The notes: generated from the letters alone by a model not told the origin. A DNA stretch of 33,929 bases from Dehalococcoidia bacterium (GCA_002712585.1 PAUC01000034.1:10317-44245), one strand, 5' to 3'. Numbered from the stretch's first letter, positions 2,827-27,330 are shown. Translations and numbers: made by a program.

Positions 2827-4266
2827 TTGCAAAAAAAAGATCCAGAAAGACGATTTAATGATTCAATAATCCGTAGACCTAGACTGCGAGAGACGAAGCC
2901 TTTCGTGGTTAAAATACCGTCTCGTCGAAAACCCACGGCATTTTTTTCTTCCCCTTTAATACTTTTGTATGGATTTATCTCGTTAATTTTACTAGGAGGT
3001 ATTCTTTTATCATTTCCGATTGCTAGCGCGGCAGATGGTGGCACCCCATTTGCAAATGCATTTTTTACCTCAACCTCAGCTGTGACGGTTACAGGACTTA
3101 CCGTTGTTTCCACAGCTGAACATTGGAGTATTTTTGGCCAAGTTATAATCTTTATTCTTATGCTTGTAGGTGGTCTCGGCTTTATGAGTTTTGCCACGTT
3201 CATTCTCGTCATGATCGGCCAAAGAATATCTCTCCAGGAGAGTATGCTAATTAGCGACACTATTAGCAGTAATCGCATTGGTGGGATGGTGAGCTTACTC
3301 AGAAACATAGTAATAGTGGTCATGGGTATTTATCTCATAGGAATGATTTTCATCTTTTGGAGAATTGGTGATATGTTTCCGGTCACAGAAGCTCTTTGGC
3401 AGTCGATTTTTCTTTCTGTATCGAGTTTCAACAATGCCGGATTTACGATTCTTCCTGATTCCAGGAGCATAGAAGGTCTAAAGGATTTCAAAATTATATT
3501 TGCTATGATGAGTTTTTTAATCATCTTAGGAAGTATAGGGTGGGTTACCCTAGTGGATATCTGCCGCAAACGACGATTTTCTAGATTTAGTCTTGATACA
3601 AAATTGGTATTGACGACAACCATAGTCCTTTTTTTGATTGGCCTCGCGGTGTTTTTCGTTGGAGAATATTCGAATGGCGACACAATTAAGTACAAAACCC
3701 TTTCCGAAAAATTGGGGCATAGTGTAATTCATTCTATTACTGGTAGGACTGCTGGCTTTACAGCAGTGAATTTTTCAGATACTAGTGATCTCACCAAGCT
3801 GTTTTTCACCATGTTGATGTTTATTGGCGGTGCGGCAGGATCTACTACAGGTGGTATAAAAGTGGTGACCTTCGCGGTAATCGTCGCCGCTGTAATTTCT
3901 TCTATAAAAAATAGAACTCAGACCGAGGCATATGGTCGAGAAATTCCGGCATTTCAGGTCCATAGAGCTTTGACTGTTACCATGCTGTCTGGAGGATTAA
4001 TATTCTTTAGTGCAATGTTATTAACTGTTACAGAGAGGGATTTAGATGTTGCGTTCTTGGACATGTTTTTTGATATCGTGTCCGCCTTTGCTACTACGGG
4101 ACTGTCGACAGGGGTTGCCCCTTTACTTTCAGTCTGGGGTAAAATAATGTTCATAATTGTTATGGTCTTGGGGCGGTTAGGTCCTTTGGCGTTAGCATTG
4201 GCACTGACCCCACAAGAAGAAGTTAGTGCTTATAGGTTTGCCCAGGAAAGAGTGAGGATAGGATAA
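2827..4266 (+). CDS. TrkH/KtrB-type potassium transporter membrane subunit
   Basis: A 479-residue integral membrane protein with the four pseudo-repeats of the Trk/Ktr/HKT superfamily. The filter loops are TSAVTVTGL (83-91), SSFNNAGF (199-206), ITGRTAGF (304-311) and FATTGLSTG (421-429). The hinge GGAAGSTTGG (334-343) sits inside the third repeat. It conducts K+ (possibly with Na+) into the cell and needs a cytosolic RCK ring; that partner begins with the very next base after its stop. The start is TTG at 2827; about 40 polar residues precede the first membrane segment. Length is closer to KtrB/TrkG than to long TrkH proteins. First gene of the potassium cluster. Confidence 0.93.
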   Translation: MQKKDPERRFNDSIIRRPRLRETKPFVVKIPSRRKPTAFFSSPLILLYGFISLILLGGILLSFPIASAADGGTPFANAFFTSTSAVTVTGLTVVSTAEHWSIFGQVIIFILMLVGGLGFMSFATFILVMIGQRISLQESMLISDTISSNRIGGMVSLLRNIVIVVMGIYLIGMIFIFWRIGDMFPVTEALWQSIFLSVSSFNNAGFTILPDSRSIEGLKDFKIIFAMMSFLIILGSIGWVTLVDICRKRRFSRFSLDTKLVLTTTIVLFLIGLAVFFVGEYSNGDTIKYKTLSEKLGHSVIHSITGRTAGFTAVNFSDTSDLTKLFFTMLMFIGGAAGSTTGGIKVVTFAVIVAAVISSIKNRTQTEAYGREIPAFQVHRALTVTMLSGGLIFFSAMLLTVTERDLDVAFLDMFFDIVSAFATTGLSTGVAPLLSVWGKIMFIIVMVLGRLGPLALALALTPQEEVSAYRFAQERVRIG

Positions 4267-4968
4267 ATGAAAAAACAAGTGGTAATTGTAGGATTGGGTA
4301 GATTTGGAATTAGTATGGCCCGGGAGTTATACCAGGCAGGCCATGATGTGTTGGCACTGGACCTTAATGAGACTAAAGTGCAGGATGCTTTGGGAGAAGT
4401 GACCTATGCTGTTCGAGGGGACGCTTCTAGTGAAGCCCTCTTGAAAGAATTGGGAGTACAGAATTTTGATGTTGCGGTGGTGGCTATTGGATCTGATATT
4501 CAAGCGAGCATTTTGGTGACTGTTCTCTTAAAGAGCATGAACATACCATTTATTATAGCCCGCTCAACCAACCAACTTCATGGAGACACATTAGATCGTA
4601 TTGGAGCAGATCGGGTTATCTATCCGGAACAGGAGACTGGTAGGAGATTGGCTCATGTAGAATTTGATCCAGGTGTCATGGACTATATGGATATAACAAC
4701 GAACTATGGCATTACAAAGATCCGCCCTCCCGATCATTTGGTCAAGAAAACGTTAGAGGAGGCGGGATTGAGTGGGCCAAGGGATAAGTATGGGATAGCT
4801 GTGCTCGCGATACGGAGGGGAAGGGAGTGTGTACTGATCCCATCAATGGAAGAGGAAATTAGGTCTGGAGACATTCTTATATTGGCTGGAAATGCCGATC
4901 AATTGGGTCGGCTCCAGGAAATTCCTAAAGAGAAACTGCTAAAGTCAGGTGATAGTTCGGTGTCGTGA
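4267..4968 (+). CDS. TrkA/KtrA regulatory subunit (RCK_N + RCK_C)
   Basis: A 233-residue cytosolic protein. The N-terminal Rossmann fold carries GLGRFG (residues 9-14) with an acidic residue after beta-2 (VLALDLNE), so it should bind NAD(H) or an adenine nucleotide. The C-terminal part, about residues 140-225, is a TrkA_C/RCK_C regulatory domain. The ATG at 4267 abuts the transporter's TAA (4264-4266), so translation is almost certainly coupled and it is the transporter's gating partner. Potassium genes continue after a 128-bp gap, with two further RCK proteins, so this cell makes at least three different RCK polypeptides from one locus. Confidence 0.92.
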   Translation: MKKQVVIVGLGRFGISMARELYQAGHDVLALDLNETKVQDALGEVTYAVRGDASSEALLKELGVQNFDVAVVAIGSDIQASILVTVLLKSMNIPFIIARSTNQLHGDTLDRIGADRVIYPEQETGRRLAHVEFDPGVMDYMDITTNYGITKIRPPDHLVKKTLEEAGLSGPRDKYGIAVLAIRRGRECVLIPSMEEEIRSGDILILAGNADQLGRLQEIPKEKLLKSGDSSVS

Positions 4969-5073
4969 AAGCAGCTGTCAGGTTAGTTTTATATGATTTT
5001 TTTATGTCCCGGGTCTTTTGAAAGTTGTAGACCAGGCCTTTTGCATTTAATATAACCTGCAAATTCGTTTGTT

Positions 5074-5085
5074 GAATACGTATTC
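5074..5085. promoter_or_regulatory. 12-bp perfect palindrome ahead of the UspA gene
   Basis: GAATACGTATTC reads the same on both strands and lies 11 bp before the TTG start of the stress-protein gene. Upstream is an AT-rich stretch (around 5046-5056) that could serve as a -10 region. An operator just downstream of the transcription start is one reading; a chance palindrome is the alternative. Confidence 0.3.
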
Positions 5086-5096
5086 GAGGCAGGGTT

Positions 5097-5558
5097 TTGG
5101 AACAAGATACAACTAAAACAATCCTATTACCAATTTGTGGCACAGAAGTTGATGAAAGCGCGTTCTCAGTTGCAGCATGGCTTGCTAAAGCTTCTAAAAG
5201 TTCAGTTAGGGCATTACATGTAATTGAGGTAAGTAGGGATAAGCCTTTAGACGCCGATTTAGGTGAAGAGGCTGATGTAGGAGAGCAAATCTTGGAGAAA
5301 ATTGAAAACTTAGCCAAAGCTGAAAAATGCCCTATTCAAGCAGGGATAATACAGGCTAGAAGCGCTGGGCACGCAATAGTTCAGGAAGCTCAAATAAGAA
5401 ATGTTCAGACAATAGTCTTAGGAACTAGTAAAATTAAAGGGACGGCTGGCGATTATTTTGGTAGAACTGTCTCTCATATACTTAGGAATTCTGACTGCGA
5501 TGTCATTATTTGGAGAGGCGGTACTTATGGACAGGTCTCGACTGAGAGAGTTGAGTAA
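5097..5558 (+). CDS. Universal stress protein, UspA family
   Basis: A single-domain 153-residue Usp. It has ILLPICGTEVDESAF at the N-terminus (beta-1 and helix 1), ALHVIEV at beta-2, and near the end GTSKIKG...FGRTVSHILRNSDCDVIIWRG. The last matches the ATP-binding Usp pattern G-x2-G-x9-G-(S/T), here with an altered first half. Start TTG at 5097 is preceded by GAGGCAGGG. It lies between TrkA and two more RCK genes and ends directly against the next start (5558/5559). Usp proteins often accompany potassium and osmotic transport genes and are thought to couple them to nucleotide state, so a regulatory role in this cluster is a reasonable inference. Confidence 0.88.
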   Translation: MEQDTTKTILLPICGTEVDESAFSVAAWLAKASKSSVRALHVIEVSRDKPLDADLGEEADVGEQILEKIENLAKAEKCPIQAGIIQARSAGHAIVQEAQIRNVQTIVLGTSKIKGTAGDYFGRTVSHILRNSDCDVIIWRGGTYGQVSTERVE

Positions 5559-5960
5559 ATGCGTTATTTGATTATGGGTTCTGCGGAGATAGCTAGACAT
5601 CTAACCGACGCCATAAATCTAAGGGGGTCTATGGTTATTGTTTTGAATGATTGTAAGGATCTAGAAGATCATTCTTTTCATAATGCGAATGTAATACATA
5701 ATGTTTACACGGGTTGTTTGATGGAGGATCTGCAACGGGCCAAAATTGCTAGTGTTGACGGGTTTCTGGCTTGTTCTGATGACGATAACCGAAATACTAT
5801 GGCAGCTCAAATTGCCACCCAGATATTTCATGTTCCTCTGGTACTTTGTCATGTAGGTAACGGAGTAAAAGCCACGGCATATAAAGAAATGGGGTTAGAC
5901 GTAGTTAGTTCAACGGTAATGGTTGCTGACAATATATTCTCAAGATTAGAAAATTCATAA
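5559..5960 (+). CDS. RCK_N-only TrkA homologue with degenerate nucleotide motif
   Basis: A 133-residue protein matching only the N-terminal Rossmann half of TrkA. It keeps later family features: DGFLACSDDDNRNTMAAQIA around 67-86, and the end MGLDVVSSTVMVADNIF. Where the neighbouring TrkA has GAGQVG at residues 7-12, this one has GSAEIA at the same positions, so two of the three dinucleotide-binding glycines are Ala. The start ATG abuts the Usp stop. Its TAA overlaps the next ATG (TAATG). Short RCK_N plus full TrkA tandems are common in Chloroflexota and Firmicutes, so it is not a truncated pseudogene. It probably fills non-binding positions in a mixed RCK ring. Confidence 0.82.
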   Translation: MRYLIMGSAEIARHLTDAINLRGSMVIVLNDCKDLEDHSFHNANVIHNVYTGCLMEDLQRAKIASVDGFLACSDDDNRNTMAAQIATQIFHVPLVLCHVGNGVKATAYKEMGLDVVSSTVMVADNIFSRLENS

Positions 5961-6622
5961 TGTATATAGTAATTGTTGGCGCTGGACAAGTTGGCAGTAA
6001 CCTAGCGAAGTCTCTTTTGGCGCTAGGCAGGGAAGTGGTTGTCGTTGAAAGGGACTCCCAACGAATAGAAACTCTGACAGAGGAAATTGGGAGTTGTGTT
6101 GTAAAGGGAGATGGTTCGACGATACCAGTTCTGGAGCATGCTGGGGTGAGTAGAGCTAGTATAGTTATAGCCGCAACCGGATTGGATGAGACCAATCTTG
6201 CGGTGTGTCAATTGGCTAAGCATGTTTTCCAAACACCGCGTACGATGGCTATAGTAGGCAATCCAGCTCATGATGCTTTATTCCAACTTTTGGGTATAGA
6301 TGTTGTGATTAATAGGACTCGTATAATAACCTCTCAGATTGAAGAAGAAATAGGAGATAGTGCGTTGGTGCACCTAGTGAGTAGGCGTGCCGATAGTATT
6401 GATATTGTATCTGTTTCTATACCTCCTGATGCTGCTGTTATTGGGAGTTCTCTAGGAGATTTAGATTTGCCCCCCAACAGTTTTATTAGTTTGGTCGTAA
6501 AAGATGAGGGGCCTGTACTTCCTAGGTCAGATTTGAGTTTGGCCTCTGGAGACCAGTTAATTATGGTAACAGCCCTTGATGAGGAACAAGTTTTGTACGA
6601 ACTTCTTACAGGGATAAATTGA
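5960..6622 (+). CDS. TrkA-type potassium regulator (RCK_N + RCK_C)
   Basis: A 220-residue protein with intact GAGQVG at residues 7-12, the acidic VVVERDSQ after beta-2, KGDGSTIPVLEHAGV around 49-63, and TGLDETNLAVCQLAKHVF near 73-90. RCK_C occupies about 140-215. It is translationally coupled to the RCK_N-only protein before it (shared A in TAATG) and to prephenate dehydratase after it (TGATG). It should partner the degenerate RCK_N subunit. Whether the pair gates the upstream TrkH or another channel is not shown by sequence. All four genes from 5097 to 7449 touch or overlap and are likely one transcript. Confidence 0.9.
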   Translation: MYIVIVGAGQVGSNLAKSLLALGREVVVVERDSQRIETLTEEIGSCVVKGDGSTIPVLEHAGVSRASIVIAATGLDETNLAVCQLAKHVFQTPRTMAIVGNPAHDALFQLLGIDVVINRTRIITSQIEEEIGDSALVHLVSRRADSIDIVSVSIPPDAAVIGSSLGDLDLPPNSFISLVVKDEGPVLPRSDLSLASGDQLIMVTALDEEQVLYELLTGIN

Positions 6623-10700: not shown

Positions 10701-11672
10701 TCAGGATTCATTTATTATGGTCAATAAAGCCTCACTTAACTTGGTTGGATCGTGCCTGGCATAAACGTTTTTAGATATTAAGGGAAGAGCCACAACTCTG
10801 CCGACTAAGGGTTTGCAGTTCATTATGTCTAGTTTTACTGGTTGTTGGCCAGCTGAGGAATATTTTTTGTACTGTCGTTCATTAAGTTTCTCATTATTAA
10901 TTAATAGATAATCTAAAGGCTCAAAATATCCGAGATATTTACAAACTAAACGAAGGAAATCTGAAGCTTGAAATCCAGTACTTTCACCGGGCTTTGTCAT
11001 AAGATTACATACATATACTTTTTGTGCCTTGGAATTTCTAATTGCTTCGGAAATCCCGTCAACAAGAAGGTTGGGTAGAATGCTTGTGTAAATATCTCCG
11101 GGCCCTATTACGATCGTATCTGCTTTTAGAATTGCGTTTAATGAAGGGGCAAAAGCAAAGGCTTTGGGCTCCATGTAGATAGATTCTATTGGCACATCCA
11201 AATCGTGATATCTCTGACCAATTTCGGATTCACCGACTAGCTCTGTTCCGTTTTGCAGTCGTGCTTTTAAGATTGAATTAGTTAACGTGACAGGAATTAC
11301 TTGGCCCTGTATTTTTAGCAATTTTGATGCTGCTGCGATAGCATTTGGCACGTCACCGGTAATTTCTGTGAGAGCTGCTAGGGCCAGATTTCCAAAACTA
11401 TGACCACTCAGGCCCCCTGCTCCGTTAAATCGATATCCGAAAAGTTCTTTTAATTGAACTAATGCATCGTTATCGTTGGCTAGTGCAATTAAACATTGAC
11501 GTACGTCCCCTAGGGGTAGTTGTCCGAGCTCTTCTCTCAATCTCCCAGAACTCCCACCGTCATCTGTAGTGGCTACTATAGCCGTCAGGTCTAGGTTATG
11601 TTCTTTCAGCCCTGTAAGGGTTTGGTAGTTACCAGTGCCTCCACCGATCACGACGACTCTTTTTTTAGCCAT
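10701..11672 (-). CDS. yvcK: YvcK/CofD-like gluconeogenesis factor
   Basis: A 323-residue protein with the YvcK signatures GGGTG (10-14), ATTDDGGSSGRLREELG (34-50), PLGDVRQCL (53-61), a GHSFGNLALAAL block near 90-101, and IGPGDIYTSILPNLLV near 190. In Bacillus and mycobacteria YvcK/CuvA binds UDP-sugars and supports cell-wall synthesis and growth on gluconeogenic carbon. It shares the fold of CofD (the F420 enzyme) but lacks CofD-type extensions, so it is not part of an F420 pathway with cofE. ATG at 11672 is clear. The usual yvcJ/whiA partners are absent. Confidence 0.9.
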   Translation of the reverse strand: MAKKRVVVIGGGTGNYQTLTGLKEHNLDLTAIVATTDDGGSSGRLREELGQLPLGDVRQCLIALANDNDALVQLKELFGYRFNGAGGLSGHSFGNLALAALTEITGDVPNAIAAASKLLKIQGQVIPVTLTNSILKARLQNGTELVGESEIGQRYHDLDVPIESIYMEPKAFAFAPSLNAILKADTIVIGPGDIYTSILPNLLVDGISEAIRNSKAQKVYVCNLMTKPGESTGFQASDFLRLVCKYLGYFEPLDYLLINNEKLNERQYKKYSSAGQQPVKLDIMNCKPLVGRVVALPLISKNVYARHDPTKLSEALLTIINES

Positions 11673-13868: not shown

Positions 13869-15653
13869 ATGCGATTCATTAAATTTGCGGGAACGATAGC
13901 CCTGATAATGGCACTGGGTTGTGGGTCGACTTCAGATCCTGGTGTCAGCCATTCAACTGCCACTCTTTCCGTGACTGGCGGCGATACGGAGGTTCCAGTT
14001 GAAGTAGAATCCGTTAACCTAAGCCCAGATCCATCTCCCGTAACATCAGATCCGCCTACTGTAACACCAGATCCATCTACTATAACTACGGATGTGCCTA
14101 CGAATGCGATTCCAATAGCCCAAAAAGATTCTTCTCCAGAACAGAAGAGTACGGCGTCGGATCTAGATCCCGCAATTCTTTGTGTACTGATTGAAGAGGA
14201 AGCTCAAATTAAATGTGAATCTATGAACGTAGAAGAGGGATCTCAATATAGATGGACCTCTACAGCTACGGACCAGGACATGGGCGGAAGTAAATGGCAG
14301 TTCACTATTAATAAAGAACCGATTGGAGATAAAGAACAAGTATTTCTTGAAATATGCCAGGGTTCCAATTGCCAAACACTAGAAACATCTGTCGATACAT
14401 CAGCTATTTCGTCAGATTCCAATGAGATCGAAAATCCGACCGAATCAAAAACAGACTTAGAGGGTTCATACGAGGAGCATTCGGATAAGGATAATAAGCT
14501 GGATAATATGACGATGCAAAGTGAATATAGTAGAGGGAAATGTGATCCAGATGGGACCCAATACCTCGATTCACCTCCGATGAATGCGGATGAAATAACC
14601 TTTATGAAGCCTATGGGGGTGATGCAGGGCGATCATATTACTCCCATTGATCATATGTATGTGAACTATGAACCCGGCAGTTCCCCTGACGTGCTCGCAA
14701 TGGCTGATGGCCATATTGTACATATAGGACATACAGGAGTAGATCATAGGGTCATTATTGAGTATTCATGTGATCTTTATTCTATCTATATCCATATTCA
14801 TGAACTCGATCCGGATATAGCATCTCAGCTAGACTGGGTGGGAAGTGATAAAGAATCAAAAGGTAGATCCTATACTAGAGTTCCCGTAAGGTCTGGAATG
14901 ATCATTGGAAACCAAACTGGAGATCAGAGCTTTGACCTCTCTGTGGTTGACACCCGTGTGATTCTGTCGGGGTTTGTAGATCTGAGAAACTATCGAGAGG
15001 AATTCTGGAAAAGCCATTGTGTAGATCCCTATGATTACTGGCAAGGTTTGTTCAAAAAACAGCTTCTGGAGAAAACTATAGTGGTCAACGATAATCCTCC
15101 AGGTGGAAAGATTGATTATGACGTTGATGGTAGGCTGATCGGAAATTGGTTTGAAGAGGGCACCGGTGGATATTCAGGCGGTGTCAGAACTGAATCAGAT
15201 CGCCATGGAATAAGTGGGCATTTGGCTATAGCTCCCTCTGCTTTGGTTGAGGATAAACTAATCATTTCGTTTGGTAATTTCCAGAATGAAGGCAGCAGAA
15301 GATTTTTTGCTAACGATGACGCTCCGGATCCCGCGAATGTAGGACCCTCCAGCGGAATAGTGATGTATGAGTTGTGGGATGTGAATCGAGGCCCAGACAG
15401 AGACGGTATTTGTTGTGATGAAGGGTTAGAGGTAGTTGGCACTGGAGAACGTTGGTACGGAGATACTTACCCCGAAGGTGGTCTTACGCCAATTTTCTAC
15501 GACCATATAAGCTCTGTAGTTCTACTTGAAATGCTTGATGAACGGACCATTAAATTAGAAACATTTAATTTGTGGGATGAGAAATTAAAGAAAATGAAAA
15601 CAGCCGAAGAAATCACTCAGTTCACTGATAAATTCAGGATCTTTAACAGATAA
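13869..15653 (+). CDS. Lipoprotein with Ig-like region and M23-like peptidase domain
   Basis: A 594-residue exported protein. The N-terminal hydrophobic stretch ends in the lipobox ALGC (Cys18). A low-complexity Pro/Asp/Thr linker (about 50-80) follows, then a Cys-containing beta-type region (about 98-172) and an acidic linker to about 220. The M23-like part reads GDHITPIDH (254-262, H256/D261), VLAMADGHIVHIG (275-287) and IHIH (308-311, H309-x-H311). These are placed like the HxxxD, beta-core and HxH elements of LytM/M23 metallopeptidases. The C-terminal 250 residues are unrecognised. Whether it cuts anything is uncertain: motif 1 has an extra residue, and many Chloroflexota relatives may only bind. 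It has its own promoter with an operator-like repeat. Confidence 0.75.
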   Translation: MRFIKFAGTIALIMALGCGSTSDPGVSHSTATLSVTGGDTEVPVEVESVNLSPDPSPVTSDPPTVTPDPSTITTDVPTNAIPIAQKDSSPEQKSTASDLDPAILCVLIEEEAQIKCESMNVEEGSQYRWTSTATDQDMGGSKWQFTINKEPIGDKEQVFLEICQGSNCQTLETSVDTSAISSDSNEIENPTESKTDLEGSYEEHSDKDNKLDNMTMQSEYSRGKCDPDGTQYLDSPPMNADEITFMKPMGVMQGDHITPIDHMYVNYEPGSSPDVLAMADGHIVHIGHTGVDHRVIIEYSCDLYSIYIHIHELDPDIASQLDWVGSDKESKGRSYTRVPVRSGMIIGNQTGDQSFDLSVVDTRVILSGFVDLRNYREEFWKSHCVDPYDYWQGLFKKQLLEKTIVVNDNPPGGKIDYDVDGRLIGNWFEEGTGGYSGGVRTESDRHGISGHLAIAPSALVEDKLIISFGNFQNEGSRRFFANDDAPDPANVGPSSGIVMYELWDVNRGPDRDGICCDEGLEVVGTGERWYGDTYPEGGLTPIFYDHISSVVLLEMLDERTIKLETFNLWDEKLKKMKTAEEITQFTDKFRIFNR

Positions 15654-22124: not shown

Positions 22125-22925
22125 ATGCAAGAATCGGCCAGAACATTAACAATGACTAAGGATCATTTAGAATCCCTTGTTTATAGACTTGATGAAATGA
22201 ATTTTCGGAACGTATGGTCACTTAATCTCAAGGCTTCTTCTGATATAGAAATGATTTCAATTCAGGATAATGATCAAGAAAGATGGGCTTCCGAAATCCA
22301 AGAAGTGCTTAAAAGTGACCTTTGCGCAAAAAGAGATGGGTCGATTGTTTTCTGGAGCGATTTCGTGAAATTGATCATTAACCCGCCGAATTTTTTTTTC
22401 GAGGATGTTTCAAGTGGTCATTTTGAATTCCAATCTTTAAAACAAGTTTTTAAGAAACAGCTCACCATAGGCGTAGTCTTGCTACGTTTGGGTTATTATG
22501 CTGTGGGAATATTTCGAGGAGATAGGTTGGTAGTTTCAAAATCAGGTTCTCGATATGTGCACGGTCGGCACAAAAAAGGGGGTTCGTCTCAAGCGCGGTT
22601 TCAACGAATCAGAAACAAACAGATTTTTGAAATTTACAAGAAAACGTGTGACATCACCCGCAAGCAATTCGGACCATATGAGAAAGTAATTGATCAGATC
22701 TTTCTTGGAGGAGAATCCCATGTTTTGAGAAGTTTTATTGATACATGTCCATACTTGTCTAACCATAGAGATATTCTTTCGGATAAGATTTTAGAAATCC
22801 GACGGCCTGGGCACAAAGTTTTGGAAGGGATATTACGAAAAGTTTGGATGAGTCGAGTAGTACTGTACAGATGGCCACAGGAATTGACAGTACAACAAGT
22901 GGTTAATAGGAGCGCTGTCCCATAA
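22125..22925 (+). CDS. acVLRF1-type (Vms1-like, eRF1 fold) peptidyl-tRNA hydrolase
   Basis: A 266-residue protein. The core from about 112 to 200 resembles the eRF1/Vms1-like release-factor domain: a strand pair VVLLRLGYYAVGIFRGDRLVVSKSG, then the catalytic-loop region HGRHKKGGSSQARFQRIRNKQ. Its GSSQ at 153-156 is the GxxQ counterpart of the eRF1 GGQ. The basic helix after it (RFQRIRNKQIFEIYKK) is typical of actinobacterial VLRF1. Known relatives (yeast Vms1, human ANKZF1) cleave peptidyl-tRNA on split 60S subunits. ATG at 22125 is taken; 22152 is possible. MutS2 begins 31 bases after it, which supports a role in rescue of stalled ribosomes. The assignment rests on motif recall. Confidence 0.72.
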   Translation: MQESARTLTMTKDHLESLVYRLDEMNFRNVWSLNLKASSDIEMISIQDNDQERWASEIQEVLKSDLCAKRDGSIVFWSDFVKLIINPPNFFFEDVSSGHFEFQSLKQVFKKQLTIGVVLLRLGYYAVGIFRGDRLVVSKSGSRYVHGRHKKGGSSQARFQRIRNKQIFEIYKKTCDITRKQFGPYEKVIDQIFLGGESHVLRSFIDTCPYLSNHRDILSDKILEIRRPGHKVLEGILRKVWMSRVVLYRWPQELTVQQVVNRSAVP

Positions 22926-22956
22926 CAAGAGTACTTGTAATGTGATAGTAAGCTAG

Positions 22957-25407
22957 ATGGTTTCAAATGGTTTGGTGGAAAATCTTCGCAGCGATGCGGG
23001 AGAAAATTTATTCATAAAAATGGATACAGAGGCAGTAAATAGAGAATCCCCAGCAGAGAACTTTTCCTGGTCTCAATCCGATCGAGTTTTGGAATTTCAC
23101 ATAGTTAAAGAAAGATTGGCTGGGCATTGCCAGAATTCTTTTTCTAGGCATAAAGCTTTGGCTTTGGGGCCGTTGGACGATCCAGAAGATATGAAGAAAA
23201 GTCACAGGGAGACCGATGAAGCAATAAGGGTTTTGCAGGCTAATAGTGATGTTGATATCTCAGTTCCTGATGAACTTATAGTTTGGGTAAAACGTTCTAT
23301 GTTGGATGGGGTACTCAAGGGATGGGAGCTATACAAGATTGGCAAGGTATTAGGGACGATTAGTAAGATACATTCAAATTTGGGTCGAAAATCGGAACTA
23401 ACAAACATATCATCTTTGGCATTATCCCTGCCAGATATGAAGAAGATAGAGCGAGACATAAGTCATTCAATAGATCCCAATGGGACGATTTTGGACGATG
23501 CTTCGTATGCACTTCGTAATTTTCGGTCTCAAGCCGAAATGAGCAGAAGGAAACTTATAAAAGCATTAGAAAAGTTAATCCGTAAATTCGAGAGAAAGGG
23601 TTTTCTGCAGGAGTCTTTAATCACAGAACGTAATGGTCGGATGGTTTTGATGATTAAAATAGAATCCAAAAATAGGATTGAAGGTATAGTTCATGATATT
23701 TCTGATAGCGGTGCGACGGCTTTTCTAGAGCCAATTAGCACTATTGTATTGGGAAATGATTGGCGTGAAGCAATTATCAATGTCCAACATGAAGAAGAAA
23801 GACTATTATTGGAACTTACAAGTTCGATAGGCGCATATAGTACTGAAATATTCGACAGCATAGAAATTCTTGCACTGATTGATCTCTGTATGGCGAAGGG
23901 GAAATATTCCATGAAAATTGGGGGAACCTCACCCAATTTTGTCGATAATCCGAGGACTTTTATTTCTTTAAAGGGAGTAAGGCATCCATTGCTTCCTGGA
24001 CCAGTTGTGCCTGTTGATCTGTTCTTGGGTGATGGAAAACCTATATTAGTTATTAGTGGCCCAAACGCTGGTGGCAAGACTGTAGCGCTAAAGAGTTTGG
24101 GATTAACAGTTCTTATGGCTCAATCCGGACTGCACGTGTCCGCTACATTCTGTTCCATGACCCGATTTGACCAAGTGTTTGCAAACATTGGAGATCATCA
24201 AAGTATCGATTTATCGTTGTCATCTTTTAGTGCAAATGTGCAATTAATAAAGGCTATCATCGGGCAAGCCTCATCTCGATCCCTAGTTTTGTTGGACGAA
24301 CTGGGTACGAGTACTGATCCTGCGGAGGGAGCTGCATTTGCTAAAGCACTTCTATACTATTTTTGTCATAACGATATAATTTGCTTAGCTACTACACATC
24401 AGAGAGGAGTAGCTAATTTTGTTCAGGAACAGACAGATATGGTAAATGCTAGTGTTGGGCTTCGACCAAATAGCTTGGAGCCTACTTATACTATAACAAC
24501 TGGGCTTCCAGGTAGAAGCTATGCTTTAGCTATTGCTAGTAGAATGGGTATCGAAGATAAAATTATTGAACATGCTAGGGCAATGCTTGATCCAGGAGAA
24601 AGAGACTCAGAAAAAATATTAACTGAACTAGAAGAACAGAGGACTATGGTTGATAGCCGCCTGGCTACCCTACGGACTGAATTGGATGAGGCAGTGGCGA
24701 TAAGAAGGAAATTTGAGGATAAGCTTAACGATGTTGAATTCGAAAAGGAGAGAATTTTAGAGAACTATCGTTCTAGTCTTATAGATAAAGCACAAGCACT
24801 GCTAAGCCAGTTGCAAAAAGCTGAAACAGTAATACAGGCTCCTATCTCTAAGAATATTGTGATTGAAGAGAAGGATCGGTTAAAGGCTATACAAAAGACT
24901 CTTAGATCAGAGGAGTGGAGGAATAAACTAACCCAAGCTCAAAAGCTCTTGATTAGTGAGTTGGGTATTGGTGACTTTTTATATTTGAGAGGTGTAGGAG
25001 ACCCAGTGAAAATATTAAGTCATCCCGATAATTTGGGTAATATTGAAGTTTTGATGGGATCTATGAAGGTCCGCATTTCGTCAACGCAAGTAGAAAAAAA
25101 GGCTAGTTTCCATTCCGCGCGAAACTTGGGGGGAATATCTGTTACAAGAAGTTCGAAACGCTCATCTATAAGTACGGAACTAAATTTGCATGGTATGCGG
25201 TCAGATGAAGCTATAGAGGAATTGGATCAGTTTATGGACAGAGCAATTCTAGAAGGCTTTGGTTTGGTCAAGATTATTCATGGTCGTGGCACAGGGGTTT
25301 TAAGAACTATAGTGAGAGGCCATCTTATTAAGCATCCTCTAGTTAAAGATATACGACCGGGAGAAGGGGGAACAGCTGATGGAGTCACAATGGTTGAATT
25401 GAACTGA
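22957..25407 (+). CDS. mutS2: MutS2 (collided-ribosome ATPase/Smr nuclease)
   Basis: An 816-residue protein. The N-terminal part carries the MutS2 core (VLEFHIVKERLAGHC near 45), and a lever/clamp helix region with EERLLLEL near 275. Walker A is GPNAGGKT (368-375), Walker B is LLDELGTSTDP (D447, E448), and a coiled-coil arm lies near 550-640. The Smr domain ends the protein with LNLHGMR (742-748) and HGRGTGVLR (775-783). The LDLRG-type nuclease motif of Smr is LNLHG here, so nuclease activity may be reduced. In Bacillus, MutS2 detects collided ribosomes and splits them. The start could be 22957 or 23020; family homology starts near residue 45. Likely co-transcribed with the VLRF1 gene. Confidence 0.93.
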   Translation: MVSNGLVENLRSDAGENLFIKMDTEAVNRESPAENFSWSQSDRVLEFHIVKERLAGHCQNSFSRHKALALGPLDDPEDMKKSHRETDEAIRVLQANSDVDISVPDELIVWVKRSMLDGVLKGWELYKIGKVLGTISKIHSNLGRKSELTNISSLALSLPDMKKIERDISHSIDPNGTILDDASYALRNFRSQAEMSRRKLIKALEKLIRKFERKGFLQESLITERNGRMVLMIKIESKNRIEGIVHDISDSGATAFLEPISTIVLGNDWREAIINVQHEEERLLLELTSSIGAYSTEIFDSIEILALIDLCMAKGKYSMKIGGTSPNFVDNPRTFISLKGVRHPLLPGPVVPVDLFLGDGKPILVISGPNAGGKTVALKSLGLTVLMAQSGLHVSATFCSMTRFDQVFANIGDHQSIDLSLSSFSANVQLIKAIIGQASSRSLVLLDELGTSTDPAEGAAFAKALLYYFCHNDIICLATTHQRGVANFVQEQTDMVNASVGLRPNSLEPTYTITTGLPGRSYALAIASRMGIEDKIIEHARAMLDPGERDSEKILTELEEQRTMVDSRLATLRTELDEAVAIRRKFEDKLNDVEFEKERILENYRSSLIDKAQALLSQLQKAETVIQAPISKNIVIEEKDRLKAIQKTLRSEEWRNKLTQAQKLLISELGIGDFLYLRGVGDPVKILSHPDNLGNIEVLMGSMKVRISSTQVEKKASFHSARNLGGISVTRSSKRSSISTELNLHGMRSDEAIEELDQFMDRAILEGFGLVKIIHGRGTGVLRTIVRGHLIKHPLVKDIRPGEGGTADGVTMVELN

Positions 25408-25521: not shown

Positions 25522-27330
25522 ATGAAAATAGCAGTATGTGTTAAACAGGTGCCCACACTTTCTGCAATGCGTTTTGATTACAAGAATAAGACCGTACTTC
25601 GGAAAGATGTTCAACTCGAAGTAAATTCTTTTGATGTTATTGCATTAGCTAAAGCACTGGATCTAAAGGAAGAATTTGGTGCGGAAATAACGGCAATCAC
25701 TTTGGGTACAGCTGATGCCACAAGCGTCTTAACCTTTTGCTTTGCCATGGGAATCGACCATGGAATACTGATTTCAGATAGGGCGTTTGCCGGGTCTGAT
25801 ACTTTGGCCACCGCGAGGGCATTAGCATTAGTTCTAAGGGATCGAGAGTTCGACCTGATTCTATGCGGCAGAAATAGCAGTGATGCCGAAACAGGTCAGG
25901 TGGGACCTGAACTAGCCGAACTACTGGACATTCCTCACGTGAGTAATGTCAGAGCCCTGAAATTCACCCCCCATAAAGTTAGTTTGATTGCAGAACGAGT
26001 AACTGATTTTGGGTACGAGGTTGTAGAAAGTTTGCTGCCAGCCTTGATAACTGCTGTGGAAGGTCTTAGCGAGGAACGATATCCGAGGCGTAAAGAAATA
26101 GAAGCATCGTCCAACAGATGTTATGAGATCGTCGATGGTCAAAAACTGAAAGGAAACTTAGGATCATTAGGGTCTGAGGGGTCTCCTACATCTGTCGGAG
26201 AAATAAGAATAATCCAAACCAAACGTCTAGGAGTTGTTATTGAGGAGCCAGATTCCGAGAAGTTGGGCCAGATCATCTCGGATAATTTGCCAGATTGCGA
26301 AGATCGTTCTACCACTGAGTCTTATGAAGATTGGACTCGTTCCGATCGTCAACCGGGGAGAGAATTTTGGGTGTTAGTAGAAGGTGTTGATGGGATAATT
26401 ACTCAGACTAGTATGGAAATTTTAGGCGAAGTACGAAAATTGGCGGCTCAGATTGGCGGTTATGTTTCCGCTCTTATGCTTAGATCTCCTACTGGGGTCG
26501 AAGCTTCGACTGTGATTGCCTATGGTGCTGATGAAGTTTTGTACTTTGACAACAATGATGCGTTCCCTGCTGGTCCAGTTATGACCAGGGCACTATCATA
26601 TGCTATAGAAGAACGACAACCATATGCATTGATAGCGAGTGCAGTGACGGATGCTCGGGATTTACTGGCTCGTTCAGCAGCTCGTCTGGGATTGGGAATG
26701 ACGGGAGATTGTATTGGGCTGGAAATAGATGAACAAGGGCGAATTGTTCATCTGAAGGCGGGATTTGGAGGGAACGTGGTATGCCCAATATTGTCTAGGA
26801 CAACACCCTATATTGCTACCTTGAGGCCAGGTATGTTTTCTCCAATTAACCCTAAACCATTGGATATAATTAAGGAGGAACAATTGTGCCATCTGGAGAA
26901 TGATTCCAGGATTAAGTTAATTGAGAAATTTCAACAAGAAGACGTTCATGGAAGAAAACTTTTGGAAGCTGATATTGTTATAGGGGTTGGGAAAGGTTTG
27001 GGTGGCCCAGAGAACTTATCAGCTATCTTCAGTGCTGCAAACAAACTTGGTGCTGCTGTGGCCGGAACACGGAGTGTAACAGATGCTGGCTGGTTGCCCA
27101 AGCAAGTTCAAATTGGGATCACCGGAAAGGCGATATCTCCCCGGGTATATTTGGCTATCGGGATACGGGGAGCTTTTAATCACATGGTAGGTTTGCAAAA
27201 TGTGGGGACGTTGTTGGCAATTAATAAGAACCGAAGTCACCCGATTTTCAGTTCCGTAGACGTTGGGGTGGTTGGAGATTGGGAAACCTATTTGGATCCA
27301 ATGGTAGATGCAATATCTAAGATTGGATAG
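25522..27330 (+). CDS. Fused electron-transfer flavoprotein, EtfB-EtfA
   Basis: A 602-residue single chain. Residues 1 to about 250 are the beta subunit: MKIAVCVKQVPTLSAM, then FDLILCGRNSSDAETGQVGPELAELL for nucleotide binding. After an acidic linker (about 250-285) comes the alpha subunit, starting EFWVLVEGVDG. It ends with the FAD module AGTRSVTDAGWLPKQVQIG (from 514), TGKAISPRVYLAIGIRGAF and INKNRSHPIFSSVDVGVVGDW. ETF carries electrons from acyl-CoA or other dehydrogenases to the quinone pool. Fusion in beta-alpha order fixes 1:1 stoichiometry. ATG at 25522 has GGGATATAGG upstream. No ETF-quinone oxidoreductase or dehydrogenase is adjacent. It starts 114 bp after mutS2. Confidence 0.92.
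   Translation: MKIAVCVKQVPTLSAMRFDYKNKTVLRKDVQLEVNSFDVIALAKALDLKEEFGAEITAITLGTADATSVLTFCFAMGIDHGILISDRAFAGSDTLATARALALVLRDREFDLILCGRNSSDAETGQVGPELAELLDIPHVSNVRALKFTPHKVSLIAERVTDFGYEVVESLLPALITAVEGLSEERYPRRKEIEASSNRCYEIVDGQKLKGNLGSLGSEGSPTSVGEIRIIQTKRLGVVIEEPDSEKLGQIISDNLPDCEDRSTTESYEDWTRSDRQPGREFWVLVEGVDGIITQTSMEILGEVRKLAAQIGGYVSALMLRSPTGVEASTVIAYGADEVLYFDNNDAFPAGPVMTRALSYAIEERQPYALIASAVTDARDLLARSAARLGLGMTGDCIGLEIDEQGRIVHLKAGFGGNVVCPILSRTTPYIATLRPGMFSPINPKPLDIIKEEQLCHLENDSRIKLIEKFQQEDVHGRKLLEADIVIGVGKGLGGPENLSAIFSAANKLGAAVAGTRSVTDAGWLPKQVQIGITGKAISPRVYLAIGIRGAFNHMVGLQNVGTLLAINKNRSHPIFSSVDVGVVGDWETYLDPMVDAISKIG

Follow-up and report, generated by a model that had tools for sequence, protein, structure and literature searches.

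The window analysed here is a stretch of 33,929 nucleotides from a member of the Dehalococcoidia, a bacterial class of ocean, soil and sediment. It carries a gene for a Vms1-like release factor of the acVLRF1 type, called VLRF1 in the following, with mutS2 as its next neighbour on the same strand. The features of both genes are collected in Table 1.

Table 1. Features of the VLRF1 and mutS2 genes, with positions counted from the first letter of the window.
Feature	Position	Strand	Basis
VLRF1 gene (acVLRF1-type, Vms1-like release factor), 266 aa	22125..22925	+	ORF; PF18859; dN/dS
N-terminal domain, about residues 1-110, apparent remnant of eRF1/aRF1 domain 1 minus the codon-reading hairpin	22125..22454	+	family profile alignment; confidently modelled
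RNase H-fold release-factor domain, residues 114-245	22464..22859	+	Pfam range; aRF1 8hku superposition
GGSSQ catalytic loop (putative), residues 152-156, Gln156	22578..22592	+	direct reading; conservation in relatives
Probable intergenic gap VLRF1-mutS2, 94 bases	22926..23019	+	start correction from relative
mutS2, 795 aa from the conserved start (ORF as listed 22957-25407, 816 aa)	23020..25407	+	TIGR01069; 8qpp match
MutS2 ATPase domain (MutS_V), Walker A GPNAGGKT	24049..24588	+	PF00488, 105 bits
MutS2 Smr domain: LNLHG (DxH Asp lost, His kept), HGxG intact as HGRG	25180..25401	+	PF01713, 73 bits

A preliminary description of this DNA had proposed a 266-residue protein with a GxxQ loop (G153-S-S-Q156) and had placed it, by its motif, in a Vms1/eRF1-like family. 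Both the reading frame and the loop were present, and profile searches assigned the protein to the VLRF1 family. The Pfam model PF18859 (acVLRF1) matched residues 114-245 with 95.2 bits (E 4.6e-27; cut-off 27.1). Lesser Pfam matches were obtained for eRF1 domain 2 (eRF1_2, 40 bits) and for baeRF_family10. Over the whole protein the NCBIfam model NF041024 (acVLRF1_NCBI) gave 95.1 bits, below its cut-off of 125. VLRF1 falls outside this model, which seems to be tuned to a narrower group. The chain ends at residue 266, and a Pelota domain was absent from both the structural model and the fold search. The Vms1-specific zinc finger, ankyrin and VIM parts were likewise not found in the 266 residues by Pfam. 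Comparison with a same-genus relative revealed purifying selection, with a dN/dS of about 0.21 (0.068/0.319).

The loop reads R148-H-K-K-G-G-S-S-Q156 and matches GGxSQ, the published motif of acVLRF-1 (PMC6514570). Among relatives from a whole-protein search G152, G153 and S155 were invariant, and Q156 was present in 25 of 29. In a set of 53 sequences the invariant residues included R148, H149, G152, G153, S155 and Q156 and, as the conserved arginines of the following helix, R158, R161 and R163, where the invariance of the Gln is biased because the scan that fetched the set required SQ. By its sequence, the 266-residue protein is a release factor of the acVLRF1/eRF1 type whose GGSSQ loop is intact.

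The structure of VLRF1 was modelled from the 53-homolog alignment, with a pLDDT of 87.7 and a pTM of 0.85; prediction from the single sequence was unusable (pLDDT 32). A fold search with the model matched residues 113-242 to domain 2 of aRF1 (8hku) with a Z of 15.6 and 2.6 Å over 128 residues. Yeast Vms1 on the 60S subunit (6r84) matched residues 6-248 (Z 10.8, 4.5 Å, 179 residues) and superposed on the model as a single body, both domains together. eRF1 and aRF1 fitted both domains at 13-16 Å only, so their domain arrangement differs from that of the model. Balon and Pelota were also among the structural matches. The predicted fold thus agrees with Vms1 and with eRF1 domain 2, the latter comparison having been suggested at the outset. 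In the family profile of the 53 homologs, residues 5-228 aligned with residues 5-258 of aRF1, and the NIKS-type codon-recognition stretch of aRF1 fell into a gap. The N-terminal part of VLRF1 therefore looks like a trimmed eRF1 domain 1 from which the codon-reading hairpin was removed. This is contrary to the published account, in which acVLRF-1 is without domain 1 and bears a short N-terminal extension instead (PMC6514570).

The downstream gene was identified as mutS2 by TIGR01069 (657 bits; cut-off 400). Its product aligned end to end with the B. subtilis MutS2 of PDB 8qpp (E 5e-112) and is under purifying selection as well (dN/dS 0.15 against the same-genus relative). The model for the KOW/SH3-like linker expected ahead of Smr, PF20297, matched weakly (13.7 bits against a cut-off of 26.8). 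The preliminary description had put mutS2 31 bases behind VLRF1. Strand and adjacency were confirmed, and the distance was not. In the same-genus relative a stop interrupts the frame that starts at 22957, and the ATG at 23020 is conserved; mutS2 therefore probably starts at 23020, with a gap of about 94 bases. A pattern scan of this gap (22926-23019) revealed no terminator-like site.

The Smr domain had also been taken as a hint to splitting, on the ground that LNLHG stands where nucleases would usually show LDLRG. This argument has to be reversed. DxH is the Smr nuclease motif, and DLR is the non-nuclease form found in B. subtilis MutS2 (PMC10897456). Most MutS2 proteins neighbouring VLRF1 carry DLR. 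The window and the same-genus relative have N-L-H, which does not correspond to the SmrB-type DxH active site; this unusual loss of the Asp was also seen in locus L066. The NLH form would fit a protein that splits and does not cut, though not on the ground first given.

The neighbourhood of VLRF1 was surveyed in 80 named loci; the titles of nearly all refer to Dehalococcoidia, SAR202 or Chloroflexi/Chloroflexota. mutS2 was the direct same-strand neighbour in 24 of them. Two gene orders occurred, mutS2 before VLRF1 in 16 loci and VLRF1 before mutS2, as in the window, in 8. Elsewhere in the flanks or on the opposite strand, mutS2 was found in none of the 80 loci. With few exceptions, the linked genes were between -25 and about 116 bases apart. 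Of 187 genomes drawn from across the class, 42 had both genes, and in 25 of these, spread over 15 families, the two were adjacent; in the window's order they were so in 10 of 32; adjacency counts are affected by contig ends and include three genomes (G055, G589, G527) with 0.5-1 kb between the matched parts. The pairing of VLRF1 with mutS2 is real and conserved, and the survey across Chloroflexota that had been proposed for it showed recurrence in many lineages and in both orders.

In a tree of VLRF1 a single supported clade held the mutS2-first type and a few unlinked sequences. Proteins of the VLRF1-first type branched at another place in the same half; the remainder, about half of the tree, was never linked to mutS2. 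Another translation partner at the loci without mutS2 was considered and rejected, since no translation gene was among the frequent neighbours. Going by sequence, the frequent same-strand upstream neighbour at these loci is alpha/beta hydrolase-like and the convergent one short-chain dehydrogenase-like. One locus titled Rhodospirillaceae (L085) grouped with SAR202 at 99% support, together with L077, and its contig is probably mislabelled or mis-binned.

The two genes also co-occur. Among 60 genomes of the window's order 32 had both, one had VLRF1 only (84% complete), 6 had MutS2 only and 21 had neither (p 7e-10; 1.4e-7 when counted by family), where the Fisher p values ignore shared ancestry. 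MutS2 was thus present in 32 of 33 VLRF1 genomes of the order. Genome streamlining as a cause of joint loss was rejected, since the link survived when the model included genome size (p 1.5e-8). Of the genomes drawn from the class, 42 had both, 8 VLRF1 only, 78 MutS2 only and 59 neither (p 5e-4). MutS2 was therefore without VLRF1 in 78 of its 120 genomes, including apparent Dehalogenimonas, so that VLRF1 is not required wherever MutS2 occurs without RqcH.

The 8 VLRF1-only genomes were mostly discounted as exceptions. In four of them the sole VLRF1 is a distinct paralog, recognised from the tree in G563, G581 and G461 and from the loop GGRSE in G476. Three others (G523, G536, G570) have a completeness of 66-81%, which leaves G506. 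VLRF1 of the linked form is thus nearly always accompanied by MutS2 in the class, and the reverse does not hold. The second paralog group comprises loci L112, L113, L114, L116 and L117, with a loop GGRS[E/Q] or GGSSQ preceded by YIHK/FIHK; four were assigned by tree and L114 by the loop alone. The paralog occurs in genomes that lack MutS2 and in G220, where it is the second copy beside a first one linked to mutS2. The tree joins the second copy of G220 and the VLRF1 proteins of G563, G581 and G461 with full support. Outside the class, three genomes of other Chloroflexota classes (G104, G289, G431) had VLRF1 without MutS2 and without RqcH. They gave the strongest PF18859 scores, 144-154 bits, and their proteins are perhaps of the actinobacterial type.

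RqcH was searched with the NFACT_N profile, for which B. subtilis and other controls were positive. No match over the cut-off was obtained in the 60 genomes of the window's order. In a draw of 400 genomes from the phylum 167 were positive, and none of them belonged to the class. None of the 22 clear VLRF1 genomes of this draw had RqcH (p 6e-6). The window's own genome gave no match either; at 79% completeness this single absence means little, and the argument rests on the pattern in the class. The absence of RqcH, which the preliminary description had asked about, thus applies to the sampled class. tmRNA occurs in the window's own genome, and 50 of the 60 relatives had it above the cut-off. 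Loss of tmRNA as the driver was therefore rejected, and a MutS2-VLRF1 unit would complement trans-translation. A search for bVLRF1 (PF18826), run to examine the idea in Bacteroidota, gave no match, and its controls were equally silent. Besides Chloroflexota, Actinobacteriota are the other main home of the acVLRF1 family. A survey of 2024 found mutS2 and rqcH to co-occur, with 35 mutS2 and 26 rqcH among 41 Chloroflexota genomes and neither gene in Actinobacteriota (n=3,213; PMC11633108). For 1,956 FCB genomes its table gives 1,781 with mutS2 and 404 with rqcH.

Neither outcome that the preliminary description had named as speaking against it, membership in an unrelated family or a lack of conserved adjacency in relatives, was observed, and its interpretation is supported. 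Based on these observations, we think it reasonably likely that VLRF1 and mutS2 make up a unit for the rescue of collided ribosomes, which works by splitting and then direct release without alanine tailing. MutS2 would recognise the collision via its Smr domain, and its ATPase would split the stalled ribosome so that the peptidyl-tRNA stays on the 50S subunit. VLRF1 could then enter from the free A-site side of the 50S. Having lost the codon-reading hairpin, it would not need a stop codon. The GGSSQ loop with Gln156 would cut the peptidyl-tRNA, and the chain would be freed untagged. Alternatively, the chemistry of VLRF1 might consist in cleavage of the tRNA CCA end, which has been reported for Vms1 too. 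In either case VLRF1 would take the place held by RqcH/RqcP plus Pth in Bacillus. For the wider claim that the whole class runs ribosome-associated quality control (RQC) by splitting and direct release, with MutS2 and a dedicated Vms1-type terminator replacing the alanine tailing of RqcH, we see even chances. Against the rescue unit speak the unlinked half of the VLRF1 tree, linked orthologs that lack the Gln, the frequent occurrence of MutS2 without VLRF1, the three VLRF1 genomes of other classes without MutS2, and the survey result that Actinobacteriota have neither mutS2 nor rqcH.

The Gln-less orthologs are the chief difficulty of this reading. In mutS2-linked orthologs the catalytic Gln was replaced by Ser in G141, G555, G236 and G055, by Ala in G116, G589 and G527, and by Glu in G196. 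At the level of loci, L024, L121, L122, L124, L125, L126, L130 and L131 have a mutS2-linked VLRF1 in which the Gln has given way to Ser, Ala or Glu and GG and the arginines are kept. Hydrolysis can therefore not be assumed for the whole family, and these lineages may leave room for a non-catalytic role. VLRF1 might then act on split 50S subunits or on stalled ribosomes in the manner of Dom34/Pelota or of the hibernation factor Balon. It would fill the A site and promote splitting or shield the subunit, and release of the chain would fall to Pth or another enzyme. The structural matches to Balon and Pelota fit this possibility, as does the loss of the Gln with the flanking GG, Arg and Lys kept. 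However, the VLRF1 of the window and 25 of its 29 relatives retain the Gln. Loss of this residue is treated as a mark of inactive families (PMC6514570), so that retention of Gln156 implies its use, and we regard a non-catalytic role of VLRF1 as rather unlikely.

Two further explanations accept the locus and deny the shared pathway. VLRF1 could be a stand-alone rescue release factor, with the adjacency merely co-regulating two independent stress genes. Throughout about half of its tree it has no link to mutS2, and it occurs without MutS2 in other Chloroflexota classes and presumably in Actinobacteriota, where mutS2 was not found (PMC11633108). Independence is however hard to combine with adjacency in both gene orders and with the finding that VLRF1 depends almost completely on MutS2 in the order of the window. 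Moreover, 4 of the 8 exceptions in the class draw carry only the paralog and 3 are incomplete. We consider it improbable. Still less probable, and in our estimate very unlikely, is that MutS2 serves DNA recombination or repair and that the neighbourhood is due to chance or purely vertical. The first studies of MutS2 concerned its part in recombination, and a large share of the mutS2-first loci belongs to a single clade. The two gene orders, the spread over 15 families and the short or overlapping gaps argue against this, together with a co-occurrence that holds under control for size and the full-length match of MutS2 to the ribosome-bound B. subtilis protein.

The preferred rescue unit would resemble the B. 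subtilis RQC pathway (MutS2/RqcU, RqcH, RqcP, Pth) in the family and architecture of MutS2 and in its proposed substrate, the 50S peptidyl-tRNA after splitting. B. subtilis MutS2 binds and splits collided ribosomes, leaves the mRNA uncut and passes the 50S-peptidyl-tRNA to RqcH (PMC10897456). The chain is there freed by Pth; termination is the least understood stage, and no dedicated factor is known (PMC11317155). In contrast, RqcH was undetected in the Dehalococcoidia sample, and the genetic partner of mutS2 is a Vms1-like factor, so that no alanine tail is expected. With Vms1/ANKZF1 (eVLRF-1), VLRF1 shares the clade of the eRF1 superfamily, the two-domain superposition and a small-residue loop ending in Gln. 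It is however much shorter, without zinc finger, ankyrin and Cdc48-binding parts, its loop is GGxSQ and not GxuQ, and it has no Rqc2/RqcH partner. The published acVLRF-1 agrees with VLRF1 in phyletic range (Chloroflexi), GGxSQ, conserved arginines and the missing Pelota domain, but was described as stand-alone, with domain 1 lost; here the gene is linked to mutS2 and domain 1 appears trimmed (PMC6514570). The same work described bacterial VLRF-1 proteins as occurring independently of RQC components (Burroughs and Aravind 2019). Operons of a release-factor paralog with a second translation-related gene are likewise formed by prfH-RtcB and by baeRF-1 with HPF, although these involve other release-factor families and other partners.

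Both families were already known. As the preliminary description had supposed, no account of their pairing was found in the literature searched. In a class without detectable RqcH, the mutS2-VLRF1 pair is a testable candidate for a dedicated bacterial RQC termination factor, and it suggests a possible step after MutS2 in RqcH-less bacteria. If the proposed reading is true, a Vms1-like terminator would be part of bacterial RQC too and not eukaryotic only, and natural Gln-less versions may function without hydrolysis. The pair is a compact two-protein system in which to study Vms1-type release, and the mutS2-linked orthologs without Gln are natural variants suited to testing catalysis.

Other genes of the window were recorded as well. 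Directly downstream of mutS2, at 25522-27330, lies a 602-aa ORF in which Pfam detected two ETF stretches as well as the C-terminal domain of ETF-alpha, apparently a fusion of the electron transfer flavoprotein beta and alpha subunits. A 594-aa ORF at 13869-15653 had no Pfam match. Genes for F420 gamma-glutamyl ligase (1456-2214) and CofD (10701-11672) indicate coenzyme F420 biosynthesis in this genome. A potassium uptake cluster extends over 2827-6622, where TrkH is followed by three genes of the TrkA type and one for a universal stress protein.
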